NCBI GenBank assembly: GCA_034687125.1
Contig: JAQGBZ010000318.1
Location: 1 to 64,000 of the forward strand
Reading direction: 5' to 3'
From: Neelides folsomi
Taxonomy: Eukaryota > Arthropoda > Collembola > Neelipleona > Neelidae
DNA length: 64,000 nucleotides
Below, one piece after another: positions 4,530 through 44,147 of the stretch; position 1 is the first letter of the stretch, and each line of letters begins with the position of its first letter. The translations under genes were made by a program, and so were the position numbers. The notes under the pieces are model-generated. The model had not been told where the DNA came from and did not search any database. It saw only the letters and a program-made list of their open reading frames with translations.

Positions 4530-4830
4530 TTTAATATGAAATGGATGCATGAAAGGAAGGGGGAGACAAACTATTAAAAGTGCAATAAATTTCACTAAAA
4601 CAAAGTCTGAAATCTACTTTTGACTGATCGAAATGGCTTCGTTATTGCTGACACTGAGAAATGTTTGTAATTTTAAAATTATTTTAATTGGTGATTTAAC
4701 CTTCTCCCGGCGATAGTGAAAATTTCAGTATTTTTAAAAAGCTACTGAGAAACTGAATCTACTGAAATTTCAGTATTTTCGTAAACAAAGGCAAAATGGG
4801 CGAATTGAAACTTTAGCTTTGTTGCACTAA
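4530..4830 (-). pseudogene. Possible relic of a makorin 3' end
   Basis: About 90 bp at 4530-4620 can be lined up by eye with 19890-19985, the 3' flank and terminal codons of the makorin gene. Shared blocks include CAAACTATTAAAA, AAAACAAAGT and GAAATCT in the same order. Upstream on the minus strand, two copies of a short block reading NTEI echo the makorin tail motif NTEIGQW, and a PFC-like block echoes CPFGNQC, with different spacing and in-frame stops. I read this as a decayed partial copy, perhaps with internal deletion. The alignment is short and AT-rich, so chance similarity or a shared dispersed repeat remains possible. Confidence 0.3.
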
Positions 4831-19969: not shown

Positions 19970-22223
19970 TTAGAAATCTCCATCTGAATGTGAGATCTCT
20001 TCGGGTGATCTGCCACACTGCGCTGATAAACTTGAACTGTCGTTGACGGAATCTTCAGGGAAGCGGAGTTGTTCCTCTATTGGATTCCATTGACCAATTT
20101 CAGTATTTACATAACTTCCATCTTCCTCATCCCAGTAATTCTGAGAAGGCGGAGGTCCACCGTCAATCCGGGTGCCGTCAGGAAGAGAATGCATGTAAAA
20201 ACATTGGTTCCCAAATGGGCATTTTCCAGAACCATATGAATAGTAGCGGCAAGGAATATGACTAGAAATGATCATTAAAAAATACTGTCGTGCCTTGTAT
20301 TGTAGGTAATAATGATAAAATTTACCTCAATGCGTCTTTGTAGTTTTGAATCAATTTCATTTTCTCTTCTTTAGAATTAAACCAGGTTCTGCTGGCACAA
20401 ATGAAATTTGAAGGGAGTCGACACACTGGGCATCCCCTGGTCACTTTATCGTCCAAATCTTTATTTTTCCTCCATTTCCTAATGCAGGAAATGCAAAAAC
20501 AATGATTGCAGTTTGGGAGGATTCCAAATCTACGATCTCCTGGAATTTCTTTCTCCATTACGGCCTATTTAAATGTAAAGAAATACATTAATTTCAACTA
20601 TTTATATTTTATATACACTCAATATAATCAATTACAGAAGCAAAATACTTACTTTAATTTCAATTAACTATACTGATAATTTTTTATTGAAATATTTTTT
20701 AAAACCTCCATACATATGGCGCAAGTAAGAGCATTCGTTTCAGCCACACAGAAAGAAAATTCCATCGCCTTTTCATGCTCTTTAATGCATTCCTTAATAA
20801 TTAGCTTAATTTAATTTTTATTACAATTTTATTCATAAGCTGCCGCTCATACGTTTAACCGAGAGACAAAATTATGAGGACTAAGTAATGTGACAAGTTT
20901 GAATTTTCAAATTTGGTCTGAATTTATGGCTATGCATTATAAATTAATTGATCAAGTGTCCAAAATTAAATTTGTTCAGTTCATTAGATAAAATTAAAAG
21001 TAATGACCGAACTCAACTTGGATGCATCCCTTTCAACAATTAAGAGGTTCATCCATAACTCTCCAACCATTAAAAGAAAAAAATTAAGGAAAGCACCTAA
21101 TTTGACACCGCAGCACATTCGGAATCGCTTGGAATGGGCCAGACGCCATATGAATTATGGTGAAAGATGGAGACGCTGCATCTTTTCCGACGAAAGGCGT
21201 TTTTGCCTTGACGGTCCTGACGAATTTAAACATTATTTCCACGATTTGAGGAAAGAAGAAATATTCTTTTTGATAATCTCCTTCCACACGGGGAAAGACT
21301 AGGAGGTGAAAATTGGAGTTTTGTTCAAGACAACGCTCGACCTCATGTATCCGAAGAAACTCTGAACTGGTTATTGTACCATGGGATCGCTGGAGAATGA
21401 CTCATTAAATGGCCAGCATGTTCCCCTGATTGTAATCCAATTGAGAATCTTTGGGGTTATCTCACTCGCAAACTTTACGAGAACAGTAAAGTTTATGCCA
21501 TTGAGCTTCAGACTGCGTTGGAGCGGGCGTGGCGTGAAATCCCCGAAAACCTGCTTCTAACTCTGGCTGATTCAATGGAGAATCGAATTTTCGCTTTAAT
21601 TCAGCAAAATGGAAGACCAATTAATTATTAAACCCAAAATTTTAATTTTAATCACCATAATTAAGCAAAGTGTTTATTCGAATGAGCGGTTTGAATGTAA
21701 CGATTTTCGATTAATTAATTATTATAAAACAATCAATTTTCCAATATGCCATTTCTTTACGTTGTTCAACTTCATTTCAAATGATTAATATAATATACAA
21801 ATTTTGAGTAAAAATCTAAAATGGTTTTAGAAATATTAAATATTTAATCATTCGGCTATTCATTTGAGCGCCAGCTTACTTAAATAATAGCATATATTCA
21901 GTACTAACGTATGCAATATGCAGTGTACATTTATAAATTAAGTTTTGGCTCCAAATCAATTAATTTACTTTGACATGATTTTTCCTTTGTTCTTCGTCGA
22001 GCGGATGAAGGCAGAAGAGTCCACAAAATTCGCATTTTTCTCCATGAACTTTTCGACATTTGTCTCCAAATCGACACTTTCCGTATATTGCATAAGAGCA
22101 CAAATCGCTTTTGATACTTTTTTCTTTTAAAATAATAGAAAATAATTTAACATGTTTGATTAGCATTTGATTTCAAATGGAACTCTATCATTCCAAAATA
22201 TTGAATATTTTCAACTCACCCAT
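19970..22223 (-). CDS. MKRN1: Makorin-type RING and CCCH zinc-finger E3 ubiquitin ligase
   Basis: Makorins are RNA-binding E3 ubiquitin ligases. Coding exons 22223-22220 (only ATG plus G), 22123-21969, 20792-20706, 20564-20326 and 20261-19970 join in frame to 258 aa. In order, one sees a CCCH finger (CSYAIYGKCRFGDKCRKVH), the makorin Cys-His motif (CEFCGLFCLHPLD), the RING (CAICME, CNHCFCISCIRKW, CPVCRL) and a second CCCH finger (CRYYSYGSGKCPFGNQCFYMH). An acidic Ser-rich tail ends the protein. Human MKRN1 is 482 aa with four CCCH fingers. Here the two N-terminal fingers are absent from the model, so either the protein is short or upstream exons were missed. Intron 2 (20793-21968) is unusually long because it holds a transposon on the opposite strand. 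Confidence 0.87.
20838..21876 (+). mobile_element. Degenerate Tc1/mariner-superfamily element
   Basis: About 1.04 kb bounded by imperfect terminal inverted repeats. The left end begins AGCTGCCGCTCA and the right end, read in reverse complement, begins AGCTGGCGCTCA. Similarity continues for roughly 30 bp. Each end is flanked by TA (20836-20837 and 21877-21878), the duplication typical of this superfamily. Inside lies a broken transposase. The element sits wholly within makorin intron 2, in the opposite orientation. Removing it leaves an intron of about 137 bp, like its neighbours, so it inserted into an existing small intron. Confidence 0.8.
21003..21631 (+). pseudogene. Broken Tc1/mariner-like transposase
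   Basis: Three segments of a DDE transposase remain. The first has LTPQHIRNRLEWARRH and IFSDERRF (first catalytic Asp). After a frame change comes VQDNARPH (second Asp). Then, past an in-frame TGA, comes WPACSPDCNPIENLWGYL with the third acidic residue. The distance between the first two Asp is only about 47 codons rather than about 90, implying an internal deletion. Between the second Asp and the final Glu I count 37 codons (including the stop), which suggests a DD37E-type rather than a DD34E/D-type triad. The frame shift, stop and deletion make it inactive. Confidence 0.8.
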
Positions 22224-22908: not shown

Positions 22909-24504
22909 TCATCTAACAGATTCGTATCCTCCAACAAGTCCATCTTTAGTGAGCACAACTTGCCATAGTTGGAATCTCCTCGCTCTGAATCCCGCAGAAG
23001 CCATTTTCAAGTAATATGTCCACATTCGGAAGAATCTTTCTCCCTTTTCCTTCTCAAACCGGGGCCAAGATCTGATGAAGTTGTCGTACCATGCTCGGAG
23101 TGTCTTACTGTAATCCGGCCCAAAACTATGCCAGTCCTCAATGATGAACAAACCTTCTGTGTATTTCGGAATGTGTTGATAGTAAGGAAGAACTCCATTG
23201 GGGAAAATGTACTAAAAATGATAAGCATAAACATTTTCAAAAATAGCATTATTGCATTATTTACACGTTACACCTATTATTGTTTTTCTGTACTTATTTA
23301 TAATTTATAAGTAAATAAACAGAAAATTTAAATTACTTTGTGAGTCCAAGGATCTGCTAAAACCATGTCCGGATTGCTAACTCCAATGGTGTGAAGAAGT
23401 AAAATTCCATCATCCACCAAACACCTTTTGGAAACTTCAAAGAACGTTCGATAATTTGATTCTCCAACGTGTTCAAACATTCCAACAGAAACAATCCGAT
23501 CGAATTTCTCATCCAAATCTCGGTAATCCATAAGTCTGATGTCAACTGGCAAATTTTTGCATTTTTTGTCCGCGTAACATGCTCCTTCTTTTGAAATGGT
23601 GATTCCAACCATTTTAACTCCGTGATTTTGAGCCAAATATTGACAGAGCCCACCCCATCCGCATCCAATATCAAGAACTCTCATCCCTGGCTTCAACTTA
23701 AGCTTCTGAGCAATGAGCTCCATTTTATTTCGTTGGGCTTCTTCAAGATTTTTTGCGCTTTTCCAATAGCCGCAACTGTAATTCATTGAGGAGTCGAGCA
23801 TTGCTTCAAATAAATCATTACCTGAAATTGAAATAAATATACACTATGAATAATAACATAACGTATTCATGTATTAAGTATTTGATATTTAATAATTTCT
23901 TAAATCCATTCATTTAACCTTAATATTTTAAGCTTTTTGTGTAAGCAAATAAACAAACTCATTATTGGGTAAATTTAATTAAGTAATACAAATGTTTACC
24001 AATATCGTAATGTTTTTCTCCTACTTGCCAACATCTAACTTTGGTTTGCAAATTAAAGAGGTTGAAGATGAGTTTGTATCCAATCATGTTGATCCTGCTC
24101 ATATGAGTTTTGTAATATTTTCCTCTCAAATAACGATACCCAAACTCTTCCAAATCTTGACAATCCCACCAACCGTCCTATTAATAAAGAGCAATTGCCC
24201 ATAATAATTTACCTATTTATGTATATTATTTAATTTCTCAAAATATCTGTAAAACAAAGCTTACCATATAACTTTCGCCTTCTCCGAGTGAAGTCATTGC
24301 TGCGGATTTTGAGTAAAAATTCTTATTATGAACTTGTGGATCCCACTTGTTCTTTCCATTAGGAATAATCCCCACTTCTGCCAATTGAGCTTTGGCTCGT
24401 CGCTCAATAATTGGGTTAATAAATCGCAACAAAAAGCTTTCAACATATTTGAGAAGTTCTAGGAAGTGTACGAAATATTCGTATATTGAACTTTGATTGA
24501 ACAT
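22909..24504 (-). CDS. cfa: Cyclopropane-fatty-acyl-phospholipid synthase, copy 1
   Basis: Bacterial-type CFA synthase, which transfers a methylene from S-adenosylmethionine to the double bond of an unsaturated phospholipid acyl chain to make a cyclopropane ring. Exons 24504-24265, 24177-24000, 23821-23337 and 23211-22909 join in frame to 401 aa (E. coli Cfa is 382). Seen are YSCGYW, the SAM site VLDIGCGWGGL, VGITISKEGA, YRDLDEKFDRIVSVGMFEHV (the EHVG region), LLLHTIG, YIFPNG, EDWHSFGPDY and GFRARRFQLWQVV, all in the order of the bacterial enzyme. The catalytic core is intact. Spliceosomal introns and animal neighbour genes show it is nuclear, not contamination. Copy 2 lies 1.3 kb upstream on the same strand with the same intron positions. 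Confidence 0.95.
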
Positions 24505-25818
24505 TTTTGTTCAATATTTTAATGTAACTAAATGTATAATAAATATGAGATTTTTATATCTGAATTGTATGGAGTAAAATGAATGCTCCTGATTCTTAGC
24601 CTAGCGTATAACGTTCCTTTTTCCTAAGTGAAATGATGTTTGAGGAGTCTTTCTTTAAACTCTCTTCACCTCTTTGCGGCTATGCAGATTTTAATGGGTC
24701 AGTCAGTCGAAACTTTTACTCTGAGAGTTAATCTTCTAAAAATAGCAACATATAGAGTCAATTTATAAAGAGAGATATGGTCAACTTTCTTGATACATTC
24801 ATATTCGCACACTCATTGTCCCTTCTACTTATACGCATAGACGCAGATCATCTCATTCATCTCTCTCTTAAGCCATTCACCTTTTGACAATCAATACATC
24901 CCAATAATTCGCCTTCGGCATATTAAACAATGGACAGCAAATACAACCGGCCAACTTCACTTAGCATTAGAGAACTATTTATGTAGTATTTGTACAAATA
25001 CATTAGTATTTATGTATACTTAATACCAAGATACTATTTTACATATAACTACACATTTTATAACTATGTATTGTATAAATATGATTTGATTTGACTAAAT
25101 ATTTATTTAAATATGCTACTGCATAAGAAAACGCATACAATGCAAATGTCGAATAAAATATTCCATATTTTGATATATGTACGATATGTCGCATATCCAA
25201 TTCGTTCCTATTATCCTATTCCAATCAAGAGTACGGTAGATTATGAAATGATTAGTTGATTGTATTATTATTTATTGGAAAAAAACCAAATTTTAATAAA
25301 ATCCATTTATTCAATTTCATTTAGGTTAGGTATTCTCATAATTTGTATTACTACAGAAAGGCAGTTGGTCATAGTTTAGTAATATTTACACATAAATACT
25401 ATTTTAGTTAAACCTTTAATATATATGTATTGTATCCTTTATGAGATTAGGTTAAAAGTATGATATAATAAGAAATGACGCTTTGAAAGAAATAAGCGCA
25501 TAATAGATGTAAATAGTATTCTGATTTGTGTTTGTGTATTTAAACAAATGAAAGTGCAAATCAAAGAATGAAATGTAAATTGGGTTTTTAACTATGCTAA
25601 GTAAATTGACGAAATAAATCAAATATTCAAACACAAATTCCTACAAATATAAATGTAATGAATGTACTTTAAGTATTTTGATATAGCCAAACATACCGAC
25701 AAAGGCATTAACTAAAAAATCTAACAAAAGTTCTAACATGGATCAAATTAGACCATCATTATTTTAAATGAAAGTGCAAATATAAATTTCCAATCATGTG
25801 CAAATATTAAAAAGAGAG
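24505..25818. other. Spacer between the two CFA synthase genes
   Basis: About 1.3 kb, mostly AT-rich. It would hold the promoter of copy 1 and the 3' end of copy 2. No further gene copy or fragment of CFA synthase is visible here. Confidence 0.5.
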
Positions 25819-27361
25819 TTAACGGACAGATTCATATCCATCCACGATCCCGTCTTTGGACAACACCACTTGCCAAAGTTGAAATCTTCTTGCCCTGAAC
25901 CCCGCAGCTGCCAACTTGAGATAATACGTCCACATCCTGTAGAATTTCTCTCCCTTTTCAGCTGAAAATCTCGGCCATGCCTTTTCGAATTTCTCCAACC
26001 AGGCTCTGAGAGTTTTACAATAATCAGGCCCAAAGTTATGCCAGTCTTCAATGATGAAAAGGCCCTCAGTGTATTTTGCAATATGCCTGTAGTAAGGAAG
26101 TTGACCATTGGGGAAGATATACTGAAATATTTAAATATCATGCAGTCATCAATTAGAGTTTCATTTATTATTTTTCCATCATCCCATGTCCTCATATTCT
26201 ACATTCAGTCATCAATTATTATTTTCATTATTTATACCAATTTAACATAGGTAGGTAATATAATATAGCTTACTTTATGAGTCCATGGCTCAGTAAAAGG
26301 CATGTTATCATGATTGATTCCAATTGTGTGTAAAAGGAATAATCCATCATCGGCTAAACAACGATTGGCTACTTCAAAGAAAGTTTTGTAGTTTGATTCC
26401 CCAACATGTTCAAACATTCCAACGGAGACAATCCGATCGAACTTCTCATTCAAATCTCTATAGTCCATAAGGCGGATGTCCACAGGTAGATCTTTGCATC
26501 TCTCTCGTCCGAATTTGGCTCCTTCTTTGGAAATGGTGATTCCAACGACATCAACCCCATAATTTTTTGCCAAGTATTTGCACAACCCTCCCCATCCACA
26601 ACCAATGTCCAGAACTTTCATTCCAGGTTCCAGCTTCAACTTCTTGGCGATCAATTCCATCTTATTCTGTTGAGCTTCTTCGAGATTCTTTGCATTGCGC
26701 CAATAGCCACAACTGTAATTCATCTCTGAATCCAACATGGCTTCAAAGAGATCGTTACCTAAATAATATACAAGATGGTTAAAATTTTTAAGAGCAAATT
26801 GATCTTTCCATTTTGTCTTATAACTAATAAAATATAAAATCATCTTTAGTAGAAATGTAAATTATTACCAATATCGTAATGCTTCTCTCCAACTTCCCAT
26901 GATCGAGCCTTTGTTTGCAAATTGAATATTTTAAATACAATGAACAATTTGATTTTGCTCCGTAAACTCATCATTTCCGTATACAAATTATATCTAAAGG
27001 TTCTGAAAACCATTTCTTCCATATCCTTGCATTCCCACCATTCGTCCTATTATAAAACATTTAAATGAAAAATAAACCTCAATAGTTATGATGAGAAAAT
27101 AATTAATGTAATAAAAATATTTACCATATAAGATTCCCCAGCTCCTAAGCTTGTTTCAGAAGCCAGACGAACATAATAATCTTTATGGAGAACTTGAACG
27201 TCGATTGGATTGCTCCCATTGATGTTCACTCCGATCCGTTTCAAATTCTCTTTCACTCGGGATTCAGCAATTGGGCGAATTAAACGGAAGAAAATGTCTT
27301 CAATCCATTTAAAACAATCGATAAAAAACAAAATAACGGAGTACAGAGGATTTTGTTGCAT
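25819..27361 (-). CDS. cfa: Cyclopropane-fatty-acyl-phospholipid synthase, copy 2
   Basis: Tandem paralogue of the gene at 22909-24504. Exons 27361-27125, 27046-26869, 26758-26274 and 26121-25819 join in frame to 400 aa. Exons 2, 3 and 4 have exactly the same lengths as in copy 1 (178, 485 and 303 bp), and exon 1 differs by one codon. The motifs are intact: YSCGYW, VLDIGCGWGGL, VVGITISKEGA, FDRIVSVGMFEHVGESNY, LLHTIG, YIFPNG, EDWHNFGPDY and GFRARRFQLWQVVL. The N-terminal 140 residues, which in bacteria contact lipid, differ most between the copies, whereas the SAM-binding core is highly similar. Both copies therefore look functional, perhaps with different lipid substrates or expression (inference). 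Confidence 0.95.
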
Positions 27362-29040
27362 TTTAATTTAATTTTTGAATTAGTTAAATTAAGCTGAATT
27401 CTTAATTTTTTAATATGCGGCAGACGAGAGCTATGAGATCCTATGAAGAGGATCTCTCGAAGACTATCAGCTAATGGTTGATGGTAGTAGGAAAAGATCT
27501 CAAGAAAGAACTTTCACAAATTACCTCTACTACCTCAGTATTTGCAAGGGAGTTTGAACACACAGCTAGGGTTTTAGGTACATTTAATAGAACATCAGAG
27601 AATTGTCATATTTAGCATATAGATTAGACTATTCTATTTTTTATACTCATCTATCTACTTTCTGTGTGTATTTATAAGATATCTATTTACTTTCTAGGTA
27701 AAAAATGTTCCGTAAATATTCTCTGTTCTCTCTTTTATAACTATATCTAGACCTAGGAATATTTGTTCCAAAATTTTCAAAATCATCTATAATTGAATAA
27801 TTTCTGAAAATAACTAGAAAACTTTGGATTTGAAATAATGCAGAATAATGTAATGATCAAATTTTTATAATGTATATATGGTATATGAACTAATGACAAG
27901 TTTAAGAAAGTTAAATTGAAAAAAAAAACATATTTTATATGCCGAAAATAATTTAATTAAATTATTTGCAAGTAATATGAATGTCATTTCATGAGGTAGG
28001 AGAGTATTTCATGAGATAGGCAAGACCCAAGCAAATCACATTTTGAATATTGAATACGGTATGCATGTCAAATATCAAACGCATTGAGTGTTATAAAAAT
28101 CACTCATATGGGTCAATGTGTATTATTATAGGAACCGGGTTATTGGTATCTTCAAAGGTCGCAAAATGAGTCGATTGTCAGAGTCAGAGCCATGTCCTCC
28201 ATTATGAATAAGTGGGACGTTGTTCATTCACTGAAGATTTTCTCCACCTCTATAAATAGGTATAGGGAATAATCTTTCAACTTTCCACTTGGGTCGACGG
28301 TCGACCAGAGAAGGAACGCCATAAATATAAAGTGAAAGACAATTCATTCATGGACTACATTTTTGAGCAATGATTTTTTTATCTCTGCGTTTATTAATAA
28401 TTCATGCTACGTGCAATCTAAACATTCAAGGGGTATAGCGAAGATCTTTAAAAATTAAAAAATAATTGAAAAGAAATTATTCTCAAATGAAATTACAATT
28501 AAAGATAAAGGGCATAATGATTGTTTAGGTAAATGATTAAATATGAATGAAAATCTTAGCGAAAAAATTACCTTAACGTTTTTTGGCTTCTTTAGCGTCT
28601 GGTAGATATTGAGAATTCGCTAAATGCCCAAATTCTAAATATTGTGAATCCAATAAAGGAAATACGATTTGAATATTTATTTTATGTCGATTTTACTTTC
28701 AATTTCACCCTTTCACTTCGCAAAATTTATTTATATTGTAATTAATTTATCTTTGTTTTTGTATTATTTTCTTATAAACATTACCATTTAAGTTACTTTA
28801 TTTTCTCAGAAGCGACTAACATTCAATGGTATTTTCAATATATCACCAGCACCCTTGATAAAAGACACAAGAGTTCAGCTTATTTTGGTAAAAGATTATC
28901 ATATTTTGTTATTTTAAATATACTAACGATGAGTATAATAATAAGATTAATTTATAATTAACATAATATGTGATAATTGGAAAATACAAAATATAACTTT
29001 ATTTCCCAGACGGCGAAAAGAATTCAGAATAAAGGAGAAA
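27362..29040. other. Divergent intergenic region between CFA copy 2 and GPANK1-like gene
   Basis: No coding sequence recognised. A TATAAATA at 28251-28258 on plus is a candidate core promoter. A good splice acceptor (TTTATTTCCCAG) ends at 29009, only 31 bp before the GPANK1 start codon, implying a non-coding 5' exon within this region or trans-splicing. Confidence 0.45.
28251..28258 (+). promoter_or_regulatory. Candidate TATA box
   Basis: TATAAATA in a locally less AT-rich stretch, about 790 bp before the GPANK1-like start codon. Combined with the acceptor ending at 29009 it could mark the promoter of a 5' non-coding exon. This is motif evidence only. Confidence 0.25.
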
Positions 29041-30048
29041 ATGTTTAAATGGAAATCATTCATTCAAGGACCAGGACTCTTCTGTGAAAAAATCTCCTAT
29101 GAGAAAGGCAAACGTAAAAAAGAAACCATCGATTTAGCTAATGGACTCAACACAGCCGAGTTCTACAAAGAAGTTTTAAGTTCAAAACCAAGTTCATCCG
29201 TTTCAAGCTACACGAGAAGTAGAATCCTTGAAAAAAGTACAAAATCAAAGAAGGAACCGAAACAAATCCCGACTCTTTCTCAACTAATGAGACACTGCGA
29301 ATCAGATAATGTTAAAGAGTTAAAAAGACTTCATGAAGATGGTTGCATTGAGAATATCAATGCTCAAGACGAATTTGGATGGACAGTTCTCATGTGCGCT
29401 GCAGCAGCCGGAGCCCTTGAATCCACCCAATTATTGCTGCAAATCGGAGCAGATCTCGAAATAAGTGATAAAGGGAATCTGACAGCCCTCGATTTGGCAA
29501 AACGGAAAAAAAGATACAAAATTGCTGAGTTTCTTCAAGAATGGACGAAAAAGGCCAAAACCAAAAGCAGAGATGATTCAGGAACGTCCAATATTAGTTC
29601 TAGTAATATTATCCCCGAGCCATTTTATTGTGAAAAGTGTCAGAATCAATACACTGATAAATTTAAACATTTGAATTCAATATCTCACCAATTTGTAAGT
29701 AACGAGAAGGGGGCTGAAAAAGCTCATTATGGAATTCCTGAGTCAAATGTTGGATTCCAGTTGATGTTGCAAAGTGGCTGGGATCGGGACAAAGGGCTGG
29801 GACCTGACGAGTCCGGGCAGAAATATCCAGTTAAAACATTATTAAAAAGGGACAGGAAAGGATTCGGTTCAAATGGAGAAGCAAAACCGCGTGTGACTCA
29901 TTTCGGACCTTTTGACATAACTGCAGTGGAAGGGATTAGAAGATCGAAGAGGATGGAAAAACCAATTGTTTTGAAGAAAAAAGACAGACATAAGAAAATT
30001 ACAAAAGAAATGAGAAAAACAATAAATTTAAGACAAGAGTTTAGTTAA
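29041..30048 (+). CDS. GPANK1: G-patch and ankyrin-repeat protein (GPANK1-like)
   Basis: A single coding exon of 335 aa, close to human GPANK1 (356 aa). Residues about 80-155 hold two ankyrin repeats (DEFGWTVLMCAAAAGALEST, then NLTALDLAKRKK). Around residue 195 there is a C2H2-like segment (FYCEKCQNQY ... HLNSISHQF). Residues about 235-280 form a G-patch (GFQLMLQSGWDRDKGLGPD ... DRKGFG), which usually recruits DEAH RNA helicases. Basic stretches at both ends suggest nuclear location. The exact biochemical role in animals is poorly known. An acceptor ends 31 bp upstream of the ATG, and AATAAA lies at 30081-30086. It converges on DTWD1, with 242 bp between the genes. Confidence 0.88.
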   Translation: MFKWKSFIQGPGLFCEKISYEKGKRKKETIDLANGLNTAEFYKEVLSSKPSSSVSSYTRSRILEKSTKSKKEPKQIPTLSQLMRHCESDNVKELKRLHEDGCIENINAQDEFGWTVLMCAAAAGALESTQLLLQIGADLEISDKGNLTALDLAKRKKRYKIAEFLQEWTKKAKTKSRDDSGTSNISSSNIIPEPFYCEKCQNQYTDKFKHLNSISHQFVSNEKGAEKAHYGIPESNVGFQLMLQSGWDRDKGLGPDESGQKYPVKTLLKRDRKGFGSNGEAKPRVTHFGPFDITAVEGIRRSKRMEKPIVLKKKDRHKKITKEMRKTINLRQEFS

Positions 30049-42066: not shown

Positions 42067-44147
42067 ATGTCAATTCCTATTATTGATTTGAGTAAAATCT
42101 CTCAAAGAGATGGGCGGATTCCATCATCCGAAGATTGGGAAGTTGTATCGAACGAAATGAAGAATGCTTTAAGCAAAATTGGATTTGTTTGTTTGGTCAA
42201 CCATGATATTTGCCAAGAAAAGGTAAAAATTATTCTGTTCAGTGCATTAAATTACAATCTTTATCTTAATTTACCTTTTTATATTCCGGATGCGGAAATT
42301 ACCAATACTTACGATTTAGTACACTTAAGTAATAGAAAATAAACTATCCTAATGCATAGATTCAAAAGGCATTCTCAGAAGGAAAGAAATTCTTTCAACT
42401 TCCTTCATCGACAAAAGAAAAGTACACAAAAGACTTGAAAAAAATTAATCATGGATATACAAAACCTGGACAAGAGTTGTAAGTTGTGAAAGCATAAAAA
42501 AACAACTACTATACATTAATTGGGCAACTGCAATATACCCGATACCCGACTAGTGGTAAACGACAGTCGCTTACCCTACCTAAACTACCTAACCTATCTA
42601 ATACATGTCGCATGTATTAGGGTGATGTTAAAGGCGGTGTCGTTTACCTCACTTCGGGCATCGGGTGTTTAGAATCTCTCCACTAATTGTATATGGAGGT
42701 TTAAATCGGAAAAATTATTTTTAGGCGTAACTAATGAAATAAAAACAAATTTTCATGGCGACTATTCCTACGTTAAAGATAATCATAATAGCATGACAAA
42801 TTGAAGGGGATATTTGAGAAAATGTTAATATAGATTATAGATTAATTCCGTCCGTTTTAGAAAACTCATTTATACCTTTTCGATTAATACAAGTTAAATA
42901 ATATAATTAATAGAAGATTCAGATTATTTTAGCATCTTAAGATATACAGAATGAATAAAATAGAGTTAAGTTTGAAAAAAATACAGAATAAAAACAGTTT
43001 AAAAAAGAGAAAAGTCAACATCACTGAAGACAAATACATAAAATATTTGGATCCTCAATTAAATAACACGTTTAATGATTAATTAACTTAAATTCGAATT
43101 AATATTATGTTGAGTATATTTAAATTTGACTGACTATTCTTATAACATTGCATTTTATTAATATTGTGAAAATAATGTAAATAAACAGTTACTAACGCTG
43201 AAATTTAAAATGAATTTTCCGAGATACGGTCCTTTTCGATTTAAACCTTCATAATAATATGTAATATTTACCTGATGCGTAGTGTATTTATTTTCTATTT
43301 TTATTTATTTTTCGTAGATTGGACGAAAGTGGCAAATTCGAATGTCGAGAAACATTTGACTTTTTCCGTAAGAAAATGGACAATGGCGATGCATTAAGTG
43401 AAGCTCCAGACTTTCAATCCTGCCATATCAATCTCGCCAACGAGTGTCATGTATTGGTTACAAATCTTTTGCGAATTTTGGCTCTTTCTCTCAAGCTGGA
43501 TGACGAACAATTTTTTGTCAAATCTGCTCAATGCCTCATTGACCCAAGAATCCCAAGCTTCACAACATTCAGGGCATTGTACTATCCCCCTATTTCAGAT
43601 CAAATTGAAATTCAAGAAGGAACAGTTAGATGTGCTGAGCATTCCGATTATGGTCAGCAAATAAAAAAAATAAGCAGAGATTAAAAAAATATTTTAAAAA
43701 ATTATCTATTATTGTAATAGGAATCCTCACTCTCCTTTTTCAAGACATGATGGGCGGATTGGAAATCAAAACCTTGGATGGCTCATGGATTCCTGCGACT
43801 CCGATAGAAGGATCTATCTTTGTTAATACTGGAGATTTGTTGGAATTTTGGTCTGGTGGATTTTTTCCTGCAACTGTAAATATACCTAAAATTGTTTATT
43901 AAACTCTTAATAAAATTAATTAATTAATTAATTAAATGGTTTTGTTTTAAAGAAACATCGTGTCTTAATCCCACTATTGGAAATGAAGCGTCGAACTCAT
44001 CGGCAGTCAATCACTTACTTCGTTCATCCTGATGACAAAGTTATGGTGTCGCCGCTTAAATCAAGCGTAGTGGGAAACGAAGACTTCCAACCAGTGACGG
44101 CTTATGAACATGCCAAGAAACGACTCGATAAAAGTTATGGGATTTAA
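42067..44147 (+). CDS. 2-oxoglutarate/Fe(II)-dependent dioxygenase, isopenicillin-N-synthase-like fold
   Basis: A soluble non-haem iron oxygenase of the DIOX_N plus 2OG-FeII_Oxy architecture. Exons 42067-42222, 42360-42478, 43318-43652, 43721-43875 and 43953-44147 join in frame to 319 aa. The N-terminus has IPIIDLSKIS and GFVCLVNHDI (DIOX_N). The iron triad is the His/Asp of AEHSDYG and the His of KHRVLIP at the start of the last exon. The Arg of HRQSITYFV is the RxS motif that binds the 2-oxoglutarate carboxylate. LTLLFQD and GGLEIKTLDG complete the core. The substrate cannot be predicted. Isopenicillin N synthase itself shares this fold, and the RxS motif alone does not separate it from 2-oxoglutarate users. 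Intron 2 (839 bp) carries a MITE-like palindrome. Confidence 0.9.
42510..42695. mobile_element. MITE-like palindromic element in dioxygenase intron 2
   Basis: Arms 42537-42570 and 42633-42666 are reverse complements at 25 of 34 positions, sharing ACCCGAT, CCCGA and GGTAAACGAC. A perfect 10-bp palindrome (CTAATACATG/CATGTATTAG around TCG) sits in the centre at 42598-42620. Weaker pairing continues outward to about 42510 and 42695. No coding capacity is present. It is GC-richer than the intron around it, as expected for an inserted element. The exact ends and target duplication are not certain. Confidence 0.55.

Follow-up and report, generated by a model that had tools for sequence, protein, structure and literature searches.

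The 64,000-nucleotide stretch analyzed here (hereafter the window; positions 1 to 64,000 of contig JAQGBZ010000318.1, assembly GCA_034687125.1, from the springtail Neelides folsomi) carries two adjacent, intron-bearing genes, copies A and B, which belong to a family of five E. coli-type cyclopropane fatty acid (CFA) synthase genes in this assembly. We consider it probable that A and B function as nuclear genes in a pancrustacean, descend from one bacterial cfa gene, and encode enzymes that make cyclopropane fatty acids, a reading built on sequence comparison. The five-gene family forms a single clade, is integrated in the host chromosome with host-type gene structure, and keeps the catalytic residues of its bacterial relatives.

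Copy A (24504-22909, 401 aa, stop TGA) and copy B (27361-25819, 400 aa, stop TAA) both lie intact on the minus strand, separated by 1,314 bp, and the spliced frame of each is open throughout (Table 1). A sequence-only reading of this DNA had proposed two same-strand CFA synthase genes with these motifs and outer limits, each split by three introns at matching positions, with exons 2-4 identical in length (178, 485, and 303 bp) and first exons one codon apart (237 versus 240 bp). Our analysis bears out each of these points, and all six introns (78-178 bp) have GT...AG boundaries. At the protein level A and B are 68% identical over their full length, with 42, 51, 78, and 80% identity in exons 1 to 4, respectively; the catalytic half is conserved between the copies and the N-terminal half is not.

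Assignment to the CFA synthases is clear. Copy B matches the Pfam CMAS profile at E=1.8e-92 (residues 125-385) and the E. coli CFA synthase structure 6BQC at E=8e-130 (437 bits, residues 37-395), values that preclude a chance match; the next structure reaches 194 bits. Mycobacterial CmaA1 and CmaA2 share the CMAS catalytic domain and score 135-138 bits against copy B, versus the 437 bits of E. coli Cfa. Further support comes from NF008686 (PRK11705), the NCBI equivalog model for E. coli-type CFA synthase, whose cut-off of 400 bits is exceeded by all five predicted proteins (B 562, A 539, the C65 copy 549, C285a 520, and C285b 496 bits). The match to this model runs from residue 26-33 to the end in A, C65, C285a, and C285b, and the expected two-domain layout, an N-terminal lipid-binding domain followed by a CMAS catalytic domain, is present. 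Against three other CFA-type or mycolic models all five proteins stay below half of each model's own cut-off, and the 141-172 bits obtained with the mycolic acid cyclopropane synthase model NF040660 (cut-off 390) place them outside that family. By family membership, all five are E. coli-type CFA synthases. The residues that bind bicarbonate in the E. coli enzyme, C139, E239, H266, I268, and Y317 (PMC3132707, PMC11387697), are kept in all five animal proteins, and each occurs in 80 or 81 of the 81 prokaryotic rows compared.

The two window genes had been described as a tandem pair, which holds for their adjacency but understates the family. A search of the species' own assembly (75.1 Mb, 840 contigs) with the Pfam CMAS profile reduced 17 candidates to 12 exon matches, counts that are lower bounds, and 10 of the 12 can be assigned to five genes, namely copies A and B in the window, a pair roughly 17 kb apart on contig C285 (C285a and C285b; loci L009 and L010), and one on contig C65 (L011). 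Spliced models of these three further copies are open; in the C65 copy the last short exon and last intron were placed by eye, and this model then entered the motif and dN/dS comparisons. Two weak matches remain, on C250 (E 4.8e-7) and C287 (E 3.7e-6); their alignment is confined to the region of the S-adenosylmethionine (SAM) motif, and we regard them as probably other methyltransferases. Family members have two to five introns. Introns 2 and 3 occupy the same sites in all five genes, while intron 1 is found in A, B, and, one codon off, C65, and is missing from both C285 copies. Toward its end the C65 copy is interrupted by two additional introns (one at 4533-4631, another after 4819); a poly-G run lies close to the acceptor of the first.

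These gene structures also bear on whether the sequences could be bacterial contamination of the assembly, as their high similarity to bacterial proteins might suggest. Each window gene has three spliceosomal introns, the pair is flanked by eukaryotic genes on both sides, and two of the same intron sites recur in three further genes on two other contigs. A chimeric assembly would be needed at all three loci; we therefore reject contamination, whose probability we regard as negligible, and take the sequences to be genuine animal genes.

Evidence of constraint comes from synonymous (dS) and nonsynonymous (dN) divergence, estimated with the NG86 method. Between A and B, dN is 0.261 and dS 2.20, the latter near saturation, giving dN/dS of 0.12. 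The six other pairs with a computable dS gave 0.11-0.32, and three of the ten pairs were beyond saturation; because dS is so high, all of these ratios are rough. A and B are thus old duplicates, both constrained by purifying selection. That the genes are decaying or unexpressed relics of a transferred gene is very unlikely given these ratios and the five open frames with GT-AG introns. A recent tandem duplication of A and B is ruled out by a dS of about 2.2. The sequence-only reading had placed intron gain before tandem duplication, and the introns do predate the A/B split, to which we add that the duplication is itself old.

To place the family among prokaryotic relatives, we used 80 of 455 relatives found with two peptide patterns, together with 28 further loci from 274 genomes of the class of one Legionella genome, 56 of which had a match at E≤1e-100; the prokaryotic sample was thus picked by similarity. 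Tree 1 held the five animal rows, all 80 relatives, and E. coli. Trees 2 and 3 drew on a hand-chosen 36 of the 80, E. coli, and the 28 loci; tree 2 was unrooted, and tree 3 had eight rows dropped (four with odd letter make-up and four near-duplicates), leaving 57 prokaryotic rows, and two distant CFA-like outgroups added. The five animal rows formed one clade in all three trees (support 100/99), with a long stem branch in trees 2 and 3. Each protein is 50-58% identical to its top-scoring prokaryotic match, and these top matches are spread across Bacteroidota, Ignavibacteriota, Gammaproteobacteria, Myxococcota, and candidate phyla. In rooted tree 3 the animals fell inside a 23-row group with support of 92/93, just below the tool's mark of 95. 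Gammaproteobacteria, E. coli and three Legionella among them, make up nearly all of the 18 non-animal rows of this group, and several other gammaproteobacterial rows fall outside it. A bacterial origin of the family is likely from these comparisons, and since introns 2 and 3 are common to all five genes, which also form one clade, a single acquisition preceding the duplications appears to fit best.

A further difference from E. coli Cfa, beyond the introns and the five-gene family, lies at the N terminus. With each prokaryotic start codon set by script at the first Met lying no more than 165 residues from the YSC motif, the residues preceding GESYM number 72-75 in the animal copies, 58 in E. 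coli, and a median of 48 in the 81 prokaryotic rows. The animal proteins thus start 14-17 residues further upstream than E. coli Cfa, and it is there that a hydrophobic stretch is found. No upstream 19-residue segment exceeds a hydropathy of 0.63 in the 76 prokaryotic rows (of 81) that were long enough to score, whereas the maxima of the five animal proteins are 0.84-1.62. On the Eisenberg scale, applied to the first 30 residues, animal maxima are 0.40-0.62, against a prokaryotic median of 0.25 and maximum of 0.50. We read this stretch as a putative membrane-contacting helix, partly amphipathic, and do not claim a true transmembrane anchor. The divergence of the N-terminal parts of A and B had been offered as a sign that the copies may differ in substrate or expression. 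The lipid-binding domain is variable throughout the CFA family (PMC11387697), however, so the A/B difference is by itself no evidence of new substrates.

Taken as a whole, we propose that one E. coli-type cfa gene was taken up from a bacterium long ago, acquired spliceosomal introns together with an N-terminal stretch that is hydrophobic and partly amphipathic, and then duplicated repeatedly into a family of at least five. The predicted enzymes would most likely sit on an intracellular membrane. Because the full catalytic set is kept, an E. coli-like mechanism is expected: SAM would supply a one-carbon unit, placed across the cis double bond of a monounsaturated phospholipid acyl chain, and bound bicarbonate would remove a proton to yield cyclopropane fatty acids. 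Bacterial origin, membrane location, expression, substrate, and product are what we infer here.

Several observations weigh against this proposal. Just one of the five N-terminal stretches reaches a hydropathy of 1.6, the usual transmembrane threshold, and on the Eisenberg scale two of the five animal maxima lie inside the prokaryotic range. The two outgroups of tree 3 are very long branches, and the five animal rows are the only eukaryotes in the trees. In approximately unbiased (AU) tests, holding all 57 prokaryotic rows together was not rejected (p-AU 0.09), and grouping the animals with Bacteroidota and Ignavibacteriota rows was not clearly rejected (p-AU 0.054). Since these tests leave such alternatives standing, nesting of the animal genes within bacteria is suggested by the trees and not established. 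No donor lineage emerged, as the top matches are scattered and the AU tests over the 57 prokaryotic rows give no resolved position. The horizontal acquisition that had been proposed for the pair is supported by strong similarity to bacteria, and the nesting seen in tree 3 competes with a topology in which prokaryotes form a single clade.

The p-AU of 0.09 for prokaryotes as one clade would also agree with an old animal or eukaryotic inheritance, with one far-back transfer followed by loss in many lineages and none separate into this group. The long stem branch and paralogue dS values near or beyond saturation would agree with such a history, and the ten non-nematode animal matches to FCMT-1 used in one study imply that other animals hold related genes (PMC10876521). 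We nevertheless find old inheritance improbable, since the proteins are 50-58% identical to prokaryotic ones and reach equivalog level on a bacterial model.

A second alternative concerns chemistry and not descent. The five enzymes might be fatty-acid C-methyltransferases like nematode FCMT-1 or bacterial UfaM, sharing the fold and the first step and yielding a methyl-branched product. Another animal enzyme of the CFA type, C. elegans FCMT-1, produces methyl-branched acids and not rings, which adds to the points against our proposal, and it is the sole functionally tested animal relative that we found in print, also thought to derive from a bacterial CFA synthase (PMC10876521). In addition, part of the family may have changed: the SAM motif is GCGWGG in A and B, GCGWAG in C65, and GCGYGS in both C285 copies, and C285b also carries MEHVG and HSIG, so the C285 branch may be functionally shifted. 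On the other hand, of the E. coli-type, other CFA-type, and mycolic models compared, all five proteins pass the cut-off of the first, and each retains the full set of bicarbonate ligands; we judge a methyltransferase role unlikely. Ring formation by a family of bacterial descent thus remains the reading we favor.

Earlier work has described CFA-type genes transferred into animals, in ants and nematodes, and the five-gene family adds another case. Formica and Iberoformica ants have expressed cfa genes from Sodalis-like bacteria (PMC13320244), and there, as we propose here, a bacterial cfa moved into an arthropod and was then duplicated. The ant genes are about 75% identical to those of bacteria and about 33 Myr old (PMC13320244), whereas the genes described here show 50-58% identity and have two to five introns. 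Complete ant cfa genes measure 1,148 bp in three species (PMC13320244) and, next to an E. coli coding sequence of 1,149 bp, are apparently intronless. For C. elegans FCMT-1, too, an ancient transfer of a bacterial CFA synthase gene is the suggested origin; the enzyme is needed for beta-methyl fatty acids, and the worm is said to make no cyclopropane lipids (PMC10876521). The present case would be one of a bacterial membrane-lipid enzyme turned into a family of animal genes that have introns and a further hydrophobic stretch.

Cyclopropane lipids themselves have been reported from arthropods. The springtail Vertagopus sarekensis has a cuticular hydrocarbon, sarekensane, with two cis cyclopropane rings, ascribed to the fatty-acid pathway, and the same source cites cis-9,10-methyleneoctadecanoic acid as a millipede product (PMC10825826). 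Sarekensane needs CFA-type chemistry, and the main text of that paper names no enzyme for it ("synthase" and "genome" each occur 0 times). In the passages concerned of PMC10825826 and PMC11321324, no gene for cyclopropane lipids is named, and "cyclopropan" is absent from the main text, tables aside, of a compendium of transfers into Metazoa (PMC13342648). The family described here offers a host gene set for arthropod cyclopropane chemistry whose enzyme we did not find named. We advance, tentatively and with some doubt, that the five domesticated synthases are the host's own ring-lipid set, some of them retargeted by the N-terminal stretch, cyclopropanating acyl chains for membrane lipids or for cuticular hydrocarbons of the kind that sarekensane represents. 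If this were true, arthropod cyclopropane lipids would gain a host gene in place of a microbial source, and the animal may make such lipids without its bacteria. For the ants, expression of cfa is reported in PMC13320244 and products are not; with five genes in hand, the source of the rings, own synthesis or bacteria, becomes testable.

Table 1. Features of the CFA synthase locus and its flanks (window coordinates).
Feature	Coordinates	Strand	Description
CFA copy B exon 1	27125..27361	-	237 bp; contains the start codon, the hydrophobic N-terminal stretch, and the initial portion of the lipid-binding domain
CFA copy B exon 2	26869..27046	-	178 bp
CFA copy B exon 3	26274..26758	-	485 bp; SAM-binding and catalytic core: YSCGYW, DIGCGWGG, FEHVG, HTIG
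CFA copy B exon 4	25819..26121	-	303 bp including stop TAA; carries YIFPNG, the final one of the bicarbonate ligands (Tyr317 in E. coli), and GFRARRFQLWQVV
CFA copy A coding exon 1	24265..24504	-	240 bp
CFA copy A exon 2	24000..24177	-	178 bp
CFA copy A exon 3	23337..23821	-	485 bp; SAM-binding and catalytic core
CFA copy A exon 4	22909..23211	-	303 bp including stop TGA
Intron 1	B 27047..27124 (78 bp); A 24178-24264 (87 bp)	-	neither C285 copy has it; shifted by one codon in C65 copy
Intron 2	B 26759..26868 (110 bp, phase 1, G|N); A 23822-23999 (178 bp)	-	site common to all five genes
Intron 3	B 26122..26273 (152 bp, phase 0, K|YIFPNG); A 23212-23336 (125 bp)	-	site common to all five genes
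Ankyrin repeats and G-patch gene	28951..30048	+	Pfam Ank_2 and G-patch above cut-off; eukaryotic flank
CCCH/RING/CCCH split gene	19970..22172	-	RING above cut-off; first CCCH (PF00642) 20.8 vs 20.5; second CCCH below cut-off

Of the two flanking genes, we take the one with ankyrin repeats to be GPANK1-like, and the domain order of the other is presumably makorin-like. Between the exons of the latter, on the opposite strand, lie remnants of a Tc1/mariner-type transposase (20988-21631, +), with HTH_Tnp_Tc3_2 above cut-off and DDE_3 below it. Elsewhere in the window, one or more exons of a 2-oxoglutarate oxygenase with a DIOX_N domain lie at 42073-42488 (+), followed at 43283-43684 (+) by what appears by eye to be the next exon of the same gene, a frame that matched no Pfam family. 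Genome-wide, five contigs carried a total of eight DIOX_N matches, of which the one on C223 (L098) was strongest. To our knowledge, 2-oxoglutarate oxygenase genes with this domain are unusual in animals, and they may be another transferred family. The mitochondrial genome corresponds to contig C742 (L016/L017; 15,157 bp), on which ARAGORN called 21 of the 22 expected tRNAs, all but tRNA-Asn, and protein genes were named by eye. COX1 has a springtail-like look; against solved structures it matched mammal-type entries first, an uninformative outcome. NRPS condensation domains, known from springtail beta-lactam genes, gave a single match below cut-off, which carries no weight against a springtail because two species of that group lack such genes (PMC8138834). 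Its tRNA-Leu(UUR) lies between COX1 and COX2, and we take the gene order to match the pancrustacean ground plan.

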